A stretch of 64,000 nucleotides of DNA from positions 1-64,000 of the forward strand of contig JACNLO010000058.1 in the NCBI GenBank assembly GCA_014381555.1. The letters are read 5' to 3'. Below, piece after piece: positions 2-44,808 of the stretch. Positions within the stretch are counted from its first letter, which is position 1. Each line of letters opens with the position of its first letter. This stretch comes from Planctomycetota bacterium (GTDB taxonomy: Bacteria > Planctomycetota > Phycisphaerae > Phycisphaerales > SM1A02). The notes below the pieces were generated by a model. It saw nothing but the letters and a program-made list of their open reading frames with translations. It was not told the origin of the DNA and ran no database searches. Position numbers and translations under genes: made by a program.

Positions 2-74
<73 letters not shown>

Positions 75-26465: not shown

Positions 26466-27245
26466 TCAAGAAAAACGAGTAATAATAGTGCTTGCGAGCC
26501 GAGGTGATGCGGTAAAAACAGTGCTTATCAGCCGCATGGTGGTATTTGTCCAGATCTCTGGTTTTGGCCTGCGTAAACAACGCACGATTGCATTGGCAAC
26601 TTTTTCTGGTGGTTGCATGAGCCAAGAGGGTGTTTGCGATTCAAAAGTGGAAACGCCTTTTCCACTTCTCGTTGCACTGGCGTCGAAAAATTCAGTGCGA
26701 GTGCCTATGGGATGCACTGTGCTGACAAAAATGTTTTTATGCTTAAGTTCCATACGAGTGGATGTTGCAAATGCCTCCAAAGCAGATTTACTTGCACAGT
26801 ACGCACCGTGGCTTGGTGTTGCGAATTTAGATAGACAACTTGCACAAAACAAAATGTGCCCTTGCTTTTTTTTCATCATTTCATTTGCAGCAAGAGAAGC
26901 AAGTTCAACTGCAGCAAATACATTCAATTGAAACAACTCTTGAAACTGAACCGAGTTGTAGTCTGCTATGTTTTGGTCTAAACCATGGCCAGCGTTTGCA
27001 AAAACTGCGTAGAGGTCTCCAGATTGTTTAAGCAAGTATTCATTAAAGCCCGCTTCAGTCACATCACCAACAACAAATGAACAACAATCACCAAGTTCGT
27101 CTGCAAGTGAGCGTAATTTATCTTCTCTTCTTGCAGTCATGACGCACCTCATCCCAGCGGAAACACACGCTCGCGCAGTTGCTTCGCCAATTCCACTACT
27201 TGCCCCTGTAATGAGAATTGTTTTCCCCTCAATGCAAACGCTCAT
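26466..27245 (-). CDS. Short-chain dehydrogenase/reductase
   Basis: 259 aa, classical SDR. Cofactor motif TGASSGIGEAT at residues 13-23, FANAGHG (NAG motif), active-site Ser near ILFCASC and the YCASK catalytic pair. ARRE after strand beta2 suggests NADPH preference. The substrate is unknown. Its start overlaps the stop of the acyl-CoA carboxylase gene by 4 nt, so it may act on an acyl-CoA or its product in the same catabolic unit. Confidence 0.85.
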   Translation of the reverse strand: MSVCIEGKTILITGASSGIGEATARACVSAGMRCVMTARREDKLRSLADELGDCCSFVVGDVTEAGFNEYLLKQSGDLYAVFANAGHGLDQNIADYNSVQFQELFQLNVFAAVELASLAANEMMKKKQGHILFCASCLSKFATPSHGAYCASKSALEAFATSTRMELKHKNIFVSTVHPIGTRTEFFDASATRSGKGVSTFESQTPSWLMQPPEKVANAIVRCLRRPKPEIWTNTTMRLISTVFTASPRLASTIITRFS

Positions 27246-28876
27246 GTTTGTAGCACGCCGGTTTTGTATTCACCAACTATTTCAAAAGTTGATGCAATCG
27301 AAAGAGCGTTGATTAACTCTTGGCGTGTTTCTTCTGGGTTAATCATTCTATCCACCCACCCACGCGCGGCACCGTAGAAAATATCTTGCTGCTCATCGTA
27401 ACTTGCCGTTATCGCAGCGAGTAATTGTTTGCTTTCATCTGGATCGATTTCTTCGCCCCTTCGCTTACGCGCGGCAAGGTCAATTTGAAGTAACGTGTTT
27501 GCCGCGGATGAGCCACCCATCACTGCATACTTTGCAGTAGGCCACGCAAGTGTAAGAAAAGGGTCAAACGCACGACCGCACATGGCGTAATGCCCAGCAC
27601 CGTAACTACTGCCAACAATCAAACTTATTTTTGGCACAATAGAGTTACTCATAGCATTTACCATTTTTGCGCCAGAGCGAATGATTCCTGCTTGTTCGCT
27701 GTCGCGACCAACCATAAAGCCGGTCGTGTCGTTCACAAAGATGAGAGGAATTCGTTTTTGGTTGCAGTCCATGATGAAACGTGCTGCTTTATCAGCTGCT
27801 TCGGTGTAAATAACGGCAGGCATGTTTGCAGATGTTGAGGGACCAGCCTTGCCACCAGCCATTTTCTTTTGAGTTAAACATCTTTGATTTGCAACGATGC
27901 CACACGGCCATCCGCCGATTCGTGCATACCCACAGACCATAGAACGACCGTAGTCCGATTTGTATTCGTTGTAACTTTCATTGTCGACAATGCAAGTTAA
28001 GAGTTCGTTCATATCGTATTGTTCATGGGACGCCGCCTTGAAAATACTGTCTATGTCTGCTGGTTTTTTGGCCGACGCAACAACTTCGTATGGAGGATCG
28101 AGTACGGGGTGAACCGACATATCACTGTGTACAAGGGCTTGTATCCGTTTGATACATGCCTCATCATCTGGTTCTTGAAAATCAATAGTTCCAGAAATTT
28201 CAGCGTGCATTTCTGCGCCACCAAGATCTTCGTTTCCAACTTCTTGACCAATCGCCGCCTTAACTAGGGCTGGACCAGCAAGGTAGAGCCCGCTTCCCTC
28301 TGTCATTAGAAGCGTGTCGCAAAGTACTGGTAGATACCCACCACCTGCAACGCAGTTTCCCATGATGGCAGCGATTTGTGTAATGCCTTCTGCAGAAATA
28401 ACTGCGTTGTTCCTGAAGACGCGTCCAAAGTCATCGGTATCAGGAAAGACATCTTCTTGCAGTGGAAGAAAAACACCCGCTGAGTCAACAAGATAGAGAA
28501 GTGGTAATCGTGCTCGTTCGGCAATGGTTTGCGCCCGTATTATTTTTTTGCACGTCATTGGAAAAAATGCCCCAGCTTTTACCGTAGCATCATTCGCAAT
28601 AATCATGCATTGTTTTCCACCAACCTGTGTAACGGTTGTGACAACACCAGCTGATGGTGCTCCGCCGTATTCCTTATACATATTATGTGCAAAGAAAAGA
28701 CCGCACTCAAACCGTGGCGCGCCTTTGTCTGCAAGTTTGTTAATTCGTTCACGTGCAGTGAGCCGTCCATGACGGTGTTGACGCTCGATGCCTCGTTCAC
28801 CACCACCGAGTTTTATTTGTGCTGCTGTATCGATGAGTTTTGCAGTTGCTAGTTTCAATATAGACGGTTCGCTCAT
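27242..28876 (-). CDS. Acyl-CoA carboxylase beta subunit (methylcrotonyl/propionyl-CoA type)
   Basis: 544-aa carboxyltransferase. Family motifs: GRLTARERI, GGAPSAGVVTTV, LPLLYLVDSAGVFLPLQEDVFPDTDDFGRVF, GNCVAGGGYLPVL and GKAGPSTSANMPAVI region; C-terminal GSSYGAGHYAMCGRAFDPFLTLAWPTAKYAVMGG. The VFPDxxxFGRxF signature is that of methylcrotonyl-CoA carboxylase. No biotin-carrying alpha subunit is adjacent. Proximity to the HMG-CoA-lyase-like gene supports leucine catabolism. TATCCT lies 7 nt before the ATG, just downstream of a strong terminator. Confidence 0.88.
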   Translation of the reverse strand: MSEPSILKLATAKLIDTAAQIKLGGGERGIERQHRHGRLTARERINKLADKGAPRFECGLFFAHNMYKEYGGAPSAGVVTTVTQVGGKQCMIIANDATVKAGAFFPMTCKKIIRAQTIAERARLPLLYLVDSAGVFLPLQEDVFPDTDDFGRVFRNNAVISAEGITQIAAIMGNCVAGGGYLPVLCDTLLMTEGSGLYLAGPALVKAAIGQEVGNEDLGGAEMHAEISGTIDFQEPDDEACIKRIQALVHSDMSVHPVLDPPYEVVASAKKPADIDSIFKAASHEQYDMNELLTCIVDNESYNEYKSDYGRSMVCGYARIGGWPCGIVANQRCLTQKKMAGGKAGPSTSANMPAVIYTEAADKAARFIMDCNQKRIPLIFVNDTTGFMVGRDSEQAGIIRSGAKMVNAMSNSIVPKISLIVGSSYGAGHYAMCGRAFDPFLTLAWPTAKYAVMGGSSAANTLLQIDLAARKRRGEEIDPDESKQLLAAITASYDEQQDIFYGAARGWVDRMINPEETRQELINALSIASTFEIVGEYKTGVLQT

Positions 28877-28901
28877 ACTGCACAGGATACCGCATCTCTA
28901 C

Positions 28902-28936
28902 AAAAAACTCGCCAATCAACGTTGTTGATTGGCGAG
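28902..28936 (-). terminator. Strong intrinsic terminator upstream of mccB
   Basis: Minus-strand hairpin with a perfect 13-bp stem (CTCGCCAATCAAC / GTTGATTGGCGAG) and a 3-nt loop AAC, followed by TTTTTT. The U-tract ends only 25 nt before the mccB ATG. It either ends the upstream RNA or acts as an attenuator for mccB. Confidence 0.92.
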
Positions 28937-28951
28937 CAAAAGTCCTGAAAG

Positions 28952-29005
28952 GGGCTTCGCACCTGTAAACCCGATGGGTCTACGGGTTCAGGTTACGCGA
29001 AGCCC
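28952..29005 (-). other. Long hairpin within the candidate RNA
   Basis: GGGCTTCGC pairs with GCGAAGCCC; inside, ACCTG pairs with CAGGT and ACCCG with CGGGT, leaving loop TAGACCCAT. This gives 19 paired positions with small bulges and is not followed by a U-tract. The stop codon of the 14-codon frame just upstream falls in the 5' arm. Confidence 0.75.
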
Positions 29006-29032
29006 TCTTATACAGTCACATAATTCGATCAC
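28988..29032 (-). CDS. Possible 14-aa leader peptide with an extreme Shine-Dalgarno
   Basis: GTG ATC GAA ... ACC TGA encodes MIELCDCIRGLRVT. AGGAGG lies exactly 6 nt before the GTG, within AAAGGAGGTGATC (29034-29046), the perfect complement of the typical 16S rRNA 3' tail. The frame ends inside the 5' arm of the long hairpin. A ribosome loading here would disturb that hairpin and could influence the downstream terminator. It is very short and lacks an obvious run of regulatory codons, so this is tentative. Confidence 0.35.
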   Translation of the reverse strand: MIELCDCIRGLRVT

Positions 29033-29281
29033 TGATCACCTCCTTTGAAACGCTGCCATGCCCAACCGTCGCGTCCCACTTGACGCCGCCAAGCCATTTA
29101 CCCCTCCAACTTCAGGAGGGCACACCGCCCAAGGCACATTGCCTTGGTCGTCGTGGCGCCTAATCTTGGATTCTGGTTTTTGACCAGGTTCAAGAATGGC
29201 TTGCCACAAGTACTTAATTTCTATCGGCAAATAAATTGCGCAGAGCCACACAAAATATCCCGAGATATTATTTTGGAAGAA

Positions 29282-31657
29282 CTATTCGAGGTCAGAGTCT
29301 TCTTCTGCCTCAAGTTGCTGCATCTCATCCCAATCTTCAAGTGATATGAGGATTTCACGTGCAACCGAACCTTTGTGTTCACCGACGATACCAGCAACGG
29401 CCATTTGATCAACTAATCGCGAAGCTCGTCCATACCCAATACCCATTCTTCGCTGCAGAAGTGAAACAGAACCGCGTCCACTCTCAATCATGATACGAAC
29501 ACTCTCATCGAACAAATCGTCACGTTCATGGACATCATCAGAGCCATTGCTCCCAGAGCCTCCACCGGGCTTGATTTGTACCAAAGTACGCTCAAAGTTA
29601 GGTGCAGCAACTTCTTTGAGGTGCTTTACAACAGATCGAATTTCTTTTGGAGATACAAATGTGCCCTGTGAACGATTCGCAGTCGTAGAGCCAGGAGAAA
29701 TGTAGAGCATGTCCCCGTTGCCTAGTAAAAGTTCTGCACCCTTTGTATCCAAAACAATTCGGCTATCCATACCACTACTTACTTTAAAAGCAACACGACA
29801 TGGCATATTAGATTTAATTAAACCGGTGACGACTTTTGCTTCGGGTCGCTGAGTAGCAAGTATCAAGTGAATTCCAACTGCACGTGCTTTTTGCGCAATT
29901 CGTACAATTGCTTGCTCAACATCTTTCGCGGTCATCATTAAGTCAGCAAGTTCGTCAATAATGAAAACTATATACGGAAGTTTTACAGGAATGCGAGCTT
30001 TTGCTTCTTCGGTTTGTGGATCGAGAATTTTATAAATTTCATCTTCGGTAAGTTCGTTGAATCCAAGTAAATCGCGAACTCCTAGTTTTTGGAAAATTTG
30101 ATACCGTTCTTCCATTCGAGCAACGGCCCATTCCAAAATGGCCGCAGCACGACCCATCTCAGTAACAACAGGACATGCAAGATGTGGAATGTCAGAGAAT
30201 TGACTTAGCTCAACCATTTTTGGATCAACCAAAATAAGTTTCAATTCGTCAGGGCGTTTCGTGTACATCCATCCAGCAATGATGGAGTTAATGCAAACAC
30301 TCTTGCCCGAACCAGTAGTTCCTGCGACAAGCATGTGTGGCATTTTCGTAAGGTCTTCCACCATTGGTTCACCCGAAGCGTCTTTGCCAAGGAACATTGG
30401 AAGTTTCATTTTCTCTGCCCGCTTGCTGCTCATCAATTCTTTGATGCAAACTGTCTCGCGTTCTGGATTTGGTACTTCGATACCAACAGTTTTACGTCCG
30501 GCAGTATTTGGAACGATGCGAATATTTGGCGCACCTAAACTTCTTGCAATGTCACTAGCGACACCGTTGATGCTCGACACCTTTGTTCCCGGCGCAAGGT
30601 CTATGGAGTACAAAGTAATCGTTGGACCAGCTTCAATACCGGAGACTTCTCCATCAATGCCATACATCTGTAAGGTTTCTTCAAGATCAACCGCTTGTTG
30701 CCTGACAAGTTCCTCTATGGAATCACCAAAACCTTCTTCTGGATCGTCAAGTAAATCGAGAGACGGAAAGATGTACCCCTCAAAATTATCGGGGCGCTGA
30801 ATATCAGATTCTTTCGCCGCCTTCCCGCTGCTCGCAACACGAACAGGTAACTTTGCAATCTTCTTAACTAATTCTGATGGTGACAATTTCTTTCTTGGTT
30901 CTTCTTCTTCGTTCTCATACTCATCTTCCTCGTAATATTCATTATCAAGATACTCTTCATCGTCCCATTCTTCTTCTACTTCTTCGCCCACTTCAAGAAC
31001 AGTGCTTCGTCGTAATCGGAGCTTCGATAACGCTCGGGTGTTAATTTTTGGAACCTTGAATCGTGTGATACGTAAAAAAGCTGAGAGTAAAAGGTGTGGA
31101 ATCGCAAACGCGATTTGTTCTGCTGCTACAACAAGCCCAATAGCGAAAGCGGCAAGAACGATGAGGAATGCTCCGAAGTTACTAAAACTTGTTGTAAGTT
31201 GGGTTACTATTGTCTTTGCAATTAGACCCGCTTTTGCGCCCGCTAATGTCCCCACTTCGGGCAAAAACAATTCGTGGAAACATGAGATAGAAAGTGCGAT
31301 AATTAGTAAGCCCAGAGCACGGACTGAAGTGTGGGAGATTTCCTTGCCACGGAACACAAGTGTTACCCAAGTGCCGACGCCAAAAATGAGAACCCAAACC
31401 CCGAACCCAAGTACGTGGTATGTCCAATATGCAATCCAAGCTCCAACAATCCCACACCAGTTTGAAACTGGATCGTTATGTACTGCAACCACGTGACTCG
31501 GGGCATCACCAATATCGAATGAAAGTAGTGCTACAGCAACAAAAAGAGCGATTGTTGCACTAGATATCCACAAAATCCGAGAGGATAGGGCGGCGGTGGT
31601 CAATGAAGAAGGGCGTTTTGAAGACGCTCTGCGCGTACGTACAGCGGTAGTTCCCAT
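29282..31657 (-). CDS. ftsK: DNA translocase FtsK
   Basis: 791 aa. N-terminal membrane domain with about four transmembrane helices (25-200), an acidic linker (Glu/Asp/Tyr-rich, about 225-265), then the RecA-like motor with Walker A GTTGSGKSVCINS, Walker B KLILVDPK, and IVFIIDELADLMM. The C-terminal gamma winged helix (VSLLQRRMGIGYGRASRLVDQM) reads chromosome-orienting sequences. It moves chromosome dimers at division. A weak hairpin with U-rich tail (AATATC/GATATT) follows the stop. Confidence 0.96.
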   Translation of the reverse strand: MGTTAVRTRRASSKRPSSLTTAALSSRILWISSATIALFVAVALLSFDIGDAPSHVVAVHNDPVSNWCGIVGAWIAYWTYHVLGFGVWVLIFGVGTWVTLVFRGKEISHTSVRALGLLIIALSISCFHELFLPEVGTLAGAKAGLIAKTIVTQLTTSFSNFGAFLIVLAAFAIGLVVAAEQIAFAIPHLLLSAFLRITRFKVPKINTRALSKLRLRRSTVLEVGEEVEEEWDDEEYLDNEYYEEDEYENEEEEPRKKLSPSELVKKIAKLPVRVASSGKAAKESDIQRPDNFEGYIFPSLDLLDDPEEGFGDSIEELVRQQAVDLEETLQMYGIDGEVSGIEAGPTITLYSIDLAPGTKVSSINGVASDIARSLGAPNIRIVPNTAGRKTVGIEVPNPERETVCIKELMSSKRAEKMKLPMFLGKDASGEPMVEDLTKMPHMLVAGTTGSGKSVCINSIIAGWMYTKRPDELKLILVDPKMVELSQFSDIPHLACPVVTEMGRAAAILEWAVARMEERYQIFQKLGVRDLLGFNELTEDEIYKILDPQTEEAKARIPVKLPYIVFIIDELADLMMTAKDVEQAIVRIAQKARAVGIHLILATQRPEAKVVTGLIKSNMPCRVAFKVSSGMDSRIVLDTKGAELLLGNGDMLYISPGSTTANRSQGTFVSPKEIRSVVKHLKEVAAPNFERTLVQIKPGGGSGSNGSDDVHERDDLFDESVRIMIESGRGSVSLLQRRMGIGYGRASRLVDQMAVAGIVGEHKGSVAREILISLEDWDEMQQLEAEEDSDLE

Positions 31658-44724: not shown

Positions 44725-44808
44725 TGCGGGCGAGAGGACTCGAACCTCCACGGGTGTTACCCCACCAGAACCTAAATCTGGCGCGTCTGCCAATTTCGCC
44801 ACGCCCGC
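44725..44808 (-). tRNA. tRNA-Leu (anticodon UAG)
   Basis: Minus-strand cloverleaf with acceptor GCGGGCG/CGCCCGC, discriminator A, anticodon stem CCAGA/TCTGG around loop TTTAGGT (anticodon TAG at 44774-44772), a long variable arm (TGGGGTAACACCC region) and T arm GAGGTTCGAGTCCTC. The long variable arm is diagnostic of class II tRNAs such as Leu. CCA is not encoded; the next bases are TTTTT. Confidence 0.95.

Follow-up and report, generated by a model that had tools for sequence, protein, structure and literature searches.

tmRNA (RF00023) is a structured RNA that engages ribosomes and carries a short frame of about 10 to 15 codons. The Caulobacter/alphaproteobacterial sRNA CC2171 (RF01867) combines AAAGGAGGTGATCCAGTG with a short GTG-started ORF (VSHCHQP...), later hairpins, and a terminator, an arrangement also seen in the RNA described here; no functional account of CC2171, or of an RNA such as this one, was found in a search of open-licence papers. 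In Sinorhizobium, rnTrpL/peTrpL is an attenuator-derived sRNA with an ultrashort ORF, an overlapping hairpin, and a terminator, released as a small transcript (PMC7298713, PMC10117765). Extended Shine-Dalgarno sites, in which long pairing with the 16S tail reaches toward the start codon, occur in Staphylococcus aureus before ordinary genes and uORFs (PMC13009471).

In the window (the whole 64,000-nt stretch of Planctomycetota DNA analysed), a candidate RNA gene of approximately 310 nt was delimited on the minus strand, from about 29212 to 28902. It lies between ftsK upstream (29282 to 31657, minus strand; Pfam PF01580, PF17854, and PF09397) and a gene for an acyl-CoA carboxylase carboxyltransferase downstream ("mccB"; 27242 to 28876, minus strand; PF01039). 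The RNA is new to Rfam, and in its 3' module it is similar to CC2171.

Structure and transcription of the RNA gene

Folding gave z = -4.8 for the 310-nt stretch and z = -5.6 for a 391-nt stretch, and no shuffle equalled either. From its 5' end, the predicted molecule (all features on the minus strand) begins with P1, a long hairpin domain with an A-rich loop (29153 to 29207), which was present in both the MFE and the centroid fold and gave a weak covariation signal at one base pair. It is followed by hairpins P2 (29126 to 29150), in which single pairs showed compensatory changes in as many as 36 of 89 sequences, and P3 (29102 to 29120), for which as many as 39 of 90 sequences carried compensatory changes, 97.6% of cells were paired, and covariation was the strongest of the molecule. 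For P4 and its inner hairpin P4a (29061 to 29093), 98.9% and 95.2% of cells were paired, with double-sided changes. Further 3', the end of the micro-ORF described below forms the 5' arm of a long hairpin (28952 to 29005), most outer pairs of which were 92 to 99% paired; as many as 33 sequences carried compensatory changes in this hairpin. The last element is a predicted intrinsic terminator (28902 to 28936). The 13-bp stem followed by TTTTTT that had been proposed for it was confirmed, with arms at 28936 to 28924 and 28920 to 28908 and the T-run at 28907 to 28902. This stem also covaries, and a terminator-like hairpin with a T-run was found in 83 of 95 relatives.

A loop motif of the CCGACGGG type (CGACGGG-type) was observed 3' of the micro-ORF stop, within the long hairpin (28952 to 28980 and equivalent positions). 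It was found phylum-wide, even in copies that have otherwise diverged, and is possibly a contact or protein site. A 71-aa ORF across the region (29036 to 29251) was rejected, its reading frame not being consistently open in relatives.

Over 95 distinct sequences, 96.5% of base-pair cells were paired against 78.1% after shuffling, and double-sided changes numbered 348, compared with 94 for shuffled data. The covariation score was 0.556 against a shuffled value of 0.206, none of 500 shuffles scored as high, and the signal collapsed when the partners were slid. Because this alignment had been fitted to the covariance model, 90 full-length sequences were aligned with MAFFT without structural information and analysed again; P2, P3, P4/P4a, the long hairpin, and the terminator were all recovered with compensatory changes. 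The top pairs of a covariation ranking fell in the same helices. A CAGT/ACTG pairing around the start codon was nearly invariant across relatives and hence uninformative on covariation. The comparison shows that the predicted structure of the RNA gene is conserved across relatives. The sequence-only reading had proposed a multi-hairpin structured RNA on this strand and had named compensatory changes in relatives as a check; such changes proved abundant, in four helices and the terminator, and together with the folding scores they uphold the proposal.

A nucleotide search located the RNA in 10 of the 13 genomes of the genus, with weaker matches in the family and order. Covariance model R1, built from 17 sequences, matched over the full length in 178 of the 301 genomes of the order (Phycisphaerales), nearly all in single copy. 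The wider model, R2, was run on 392 genomes drawn from the phylum and matched 69 of them, again nearly always in single copy, the weakest matches including a few without the Shine-Dalgarno and frame (L288, L290, and L305). Several genomes of the same genus or family, including G003, G006, and G009, gave no match, and the RNA is therefore not universally required. A pattern search of viral contigs gave no match.

In most relatives, a candidate promoter box, CGATAMT with TTG 16 to 17 nt upstream, was found 180 to 230 nt before the Shine-Dalgarno. Promoter scores of ≥9 were obtained in 54 of 94 relatives, compared with 1% of shuffled sequences, in a scan anchored near -200, which was a second, narrower look beside a wide scan that gave no signal. 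In the window, the equivalent position is occupied by the -10 box GATAGA (29225 to 29220, minus strand), with a weak -35 box, and from this box transcription would start near 29212 (about 29213 to 29211).

The neighbouring genes vary. Throughout the genus and in part of the family, ftsK lies upstream, and the acyl-CoA carboxylase gene lies downstream in most, not all. In another family, a zinc-type (znuABC-type) ABC transporter operon with ZnuA and ABC-3 Pfam matches lies upstream, and in further relatives neither adjoins the RNA gene. The downstream gene, acyl-CoA carboxylase in the genus, is a different one in L012, L013, L018, L251, and more. Since the neighbours differ among clades, a leader or attenuator of mccB, one of two roles put forward earlier, is unlikely. 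The other, a stand-alone RNA engaging 30S tails, fits a gene that is usually single copy among variable neighbours, the 30S engagement itself being predicted from sequence. Taken together, the comparisons show the RNA gene to be a predicted independent transcription unit, with a putative promoter and terminator of its own.

A short conserved ORF of approximately 60 to 90 aa (MKVETILAELNRMRQDVDEDP...), without a Pfam match, was observed between the znuABC-like operon and the RNA gene in L251 and related loci. About 30 loci share this ORF cluster.

The 16S-tail complement and its micro-ORF

A 16S search of the window's own assembly gave no match, and the tail sequence was therefore taken from a genome of the same genus (G004), whose 16S 3' end reads GGCTGGATCACCTCCTTTCT; in nine other genomes of the order, the 3' end is identical over this part. 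The 13-nt element AAAGGAGGTGATC (29046 to 29034, minus strand) is its perfect complement, as the earlier 13-nt match had indicated. The predicted duplex energy is -24.4 kcal/mol, compared with a median of -7.8 and a best value of -16.9 kcal/mol for the sites preceding 56 long ORFs in the window; the median for the RNA family is -29.0 kcal/mol. The core of the element, the 12-mer AAGGAGGTGATC, occurs once in the organism's own 2.0-Mb genome (G000), at the RNA gene. It is rare in the relatives searched, where a genome has one to a few copies, and was absent from most reversed-pattern controls; at the several places checked, the copies in relatives lay in the RNA element or on the antisense strand of the 16S gene. 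Single-sequence folding predicted a mean unpaired probability of 0.39 for the complement in the family and 0.46 in the window, and its exposure in such folding is thus only moderate, a point against ribosome capture by the RNA.

A GTG codon at 29032, six bases 3' of GGAGG, opens a micro-ORF of 14 codons that ends in TGA at 28988 (MIELCDCIRGLRVT; 28988 to 29032, minus strand). Start, frame, and stop were kept in 91 of 91 non-redundant relatives. In each, the frame closes at codon 10 to 17, compared with 19% of shuffled sequences; L249, in which the frame closes at once and the start is probably misassigned, was left out of this count, which would otherwise be 95 of 96. Over 96 sequences, the start codons were GTG (86), ATG (6), and TTG (4), and the stop codons were TAA (51), TAG (23), and TGA (22). 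Indels between relatives comprised whole codons. The start, frame, and stop of the micro-ORF thus appear to be under selection, and the existence of the RNA and the translation of its micro-ORF are well-supported predictions.

These findings alter the sequence-only reading on two points. The region had been described as lacking a credible gene, and the 14-codon ORF behind the 16S complement had been overlooked. The complement had also been regarded as a bare binding element. Its pairing was upheld; its bareness was not, as it is the Shine-Dalgarno of the conserved micro-ORF.

Similar modules in other phyla

Comparable modules were collected with an exact AAGGAGGTGATCCAGTG scan of one genome per species; the cross-phylum counts below are drawn from the matches listed and are to be read as "at least." Among the matches listed were Phycisphaerales, many Alphaproteobacteria, and single contigs of Acidobacteriota, Krumholzibacteriota, and Myxococcota, and nearly all of these matches open ORFs of 9 to 33 codons. 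One group, with peptides beginning VSHC..., is CC2171 of Rfam, and members were confirmed in L093, L107, L118, and L130.

In the Rhodobacteraceae, the ORF was exactly 18 codons long in 38 of 38 cases among the matches listed, with all three stops interchangeable and a synonymous fraction of 0.239 over the same 38. These loci (among L078 to L188; e.g., L129:7370) lie between a Vut_1-family transporter gene and arfB (RF-1 domain), which was downstream in 33 of 36 loci among the matches listed. The space ahead of the Shine-Dalgarno, 64 nt in the median, leaves no room for a 5' domain. Rhodobacteraceae-type RNAs gave no Rfam match at gathering level (L078 and L129). In Bosea, rnr lies downstream of the RNA. 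Bradyrhizobium-type ORFs had 14 codons in 10 of 10 cases among the matches listed (V-S-x-x-KRCHLAGIAR; L113, L120, L127, L128, and others), and the element gave no Rfam match in L127.

Upstream hairpins, a super-Shine-Dalgarno, and ORFs of 14 to 15 codons were also observed in L100, L112, and L114 (Krumholzibacteriota and Acidobacteriota) and in L124 and L137 (Lujinxingiaceae and Myxococcales). Across taxa, L100 resembled L112, and L124 resembled L137.

On most alphaproteobacterial loci, the R2 match was limited to the Shine-Dalgarno/start segment; on one Acidobacteriota locus, it was full length (E = 1.6e-5). Homology of the alphaproteobacterial and Planctomycetota RNAs is not claimed, as R1 and R2 support a shared Shine-Dalgarno/start only. 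The alphaproteobacterial RNAs are treated here as analogues, not proven homologues, that would work like the Planctomycetota RNA.

Possible roles and relation to known systems

The simplest account of an exceptionally strong 16S pairing spent on one RNA with a guarded frame length and a drifting peptide is that a ribosome must bind, advance by a short, fixed distance into the hairpin, and stop. With a probability of roughly one half, the element is read here as a ribosome-capturing RNA, one where selection would favour the translation of a mini-ORF of fixed length and not the peptide that results. 30S subunits would be captured via the unusually long 16S-tail pairing, would initiate at GTG 29032, and would translate into the 5' arm of the long hairpin; after termination, the ribosome could be recaptured by the nearby super-Shine-Dalgarno. 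Selection would then act on a ribosome positioned on the RNA, whereby the hairpin may be kept open, the RNA protected, or free 30S reported or buffered. The conserved anatomy is the starting point from which we infer this function.

The serious rival, about half as probable, is that the micropeptide (V-x-x-(x)-C-D-C-T-K-G-L-H/R-x) is functional; the transcript would then be its mRNA, with an elaborate 5' UTR that may sense a ligand. The strictly kept start, frame, and stop are expected of such an mRNA, and a peptide core, [DC]-C-[TM]-[KR]-G-L-[RH], is still recognisable within the order, most of which retains a semiconserved C-x-K/R-G-L with one or two cysteines. However, codon changes between close pairs gave a synonymous fraction of 0.233, compared with 0.223 expected at random, and thus no excess, in a test that is weak because the pairs are nonindependent and the last codons double as an arm of a covarying hairpin. 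Distant Planctomycetota encode unrelated peptides of still 10 to 14 codons (MTLNRRWLSL, VIEGQCKQRWNL, and MCHRPRRPLT). The codons conserved at the C-terminal end are those that lie in the hairpin arm, and the Cys codon in the micro-ORFs is TGT over TGC by 121:10, a bias that suggests an RNA-level constraint on that codon.

It is unlikely that the RNA is instead a cis-acting leader or attenuator, in which micro-ORF translation would determine whether the long hairpin/terminator prevails or transcription continues into the next gene. The anatomy resembles that of an attenuator, with a micro-ORF that runs into a hairpin and a terminator beyond it, and the arfB and rnr genes next to the alphaproteobacterial loci agree with this reading. 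Nevertheless, no downstream gene is constant in Planctomycetota, conservation of the upstream neighbour is no weaker than that of the downstream gene, and the terminator is a separate covarying hairpin located after the ORF hairpin. Somewhat less probable again is a noncoding RNA that does no more than pair with the 16S tail, its ORF being fortuitous. The strong structure, the 13- to 15-nt complement of the 16S tail, and the poorly conserved peptide would all suit such an RNA; the replacement of GTG by ATG or TTG only, the interchange of stops, and the closure of all 91 frames at codon 10 to 17 argue against it.

An Rfam scan of positions 27500 to 30500 at E ≤ 10 returned nothing but an irrelevant snoRNA, and thus no RNase P, SRP, or 6S RNA. 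Relatives likewise gave no match to these families and only subthreshold CC2171 matches, mainly carried by the Shine-Dalgarno segment. Hence, the absence of tmRNA, SRP RNA, and RNase P RNA signatures and the label "undescribed element," both part of the initial description, stand. Across the window, the Rfam matches at gathering level were two tRNA genes, at 2 to 74 (plus strand) and 44725 to 44808 (minus strand). A diverged housekeeping RNA (tmRNA, RNase P RNA, SRP RNA, or 6S) is therefore highly improbable, even though the element is usually single copy, 300 to 350 nt long, and strongly structured, since neither permissive nor gathering thresholds gave an Rfam match and the tmRNA of the organism is located elsewhere in its genome, as the sole above-cutoff match (contig C64, outside the window; E = 3.5e-62).

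The ribosome-capturing reading can tentatively be widened to a cross-phylum class of RNAs with a full 16S-tail complement, a clade-fixed mini-ORF length, and an irrelevant peptide, which may sense, buffer, or check the quality of 30S subunits that are free and correctly matured; this extension is less probable than the reading itself. Besides the Planctomycetota family and CC2171, the class would take in the 18-codon group of the Rhodobacteraceae, the 14-codon group of Bradyrhizobium, and the Acidobacteriota, Krumholzibacteriota, and Myxococcota relatives. If the ribosome-capturing reading is right, the element would be a dedicated bacterial RNA whose job depends on being translated and not on the product. 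It would offer a natural system for the effects of extended 16S pairing on initiation, ribosome recycling, and free-subunit sensing, and would give a testable function to CC2171 and to the unannotated alphaproteobacterial RNAs beside ribosome-rescue and RNA-decay genes (arfB and rnr).

Among known systems, CC2171 shares with the window RNA the extended Shine-Dalgarno and short ORF, the window having AAAGGAGGTGATC-AGTG (one C fewer than AAAGGAGGTGATCCAGTG) and most order-level relatives having AAGGAGGTGATCCAGTG. At the CC2171 gathering cutoff of 75 bits, however, there was no match for the window or for the same-genus loci L001, L003, and L008, and the best relative (L014) reached 33.4 bits. 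R2, in turn, matches CC2171-type loci over the Shine-Dalgarno/start segment only. CC2171 begins shortly upstream of the Shine-Dalgarno and has no 5' domain, whereas in the Planctomycetota RNA four hairpins make up a 5' domain and a putative promoter lies 180 to 230 nt upstream. The ultrashort ORF, overlapping hairpin, and terminator are common to rnTrpL/peTrpL and the window RNA; rnTrpL is leaderless, whereas the Planctomycetota RNA has a super-Shine-Dalgarno, a large 5' structured domain, and no constant downstream gene. Compared with tmRNA, the window RNA lacks tRNA-like ends and has a Shine-Dalgarno and start codon. Finally, in contrast to the extended sites of S. aureus, the window-type complement marks one stand-alone RNA per genome.
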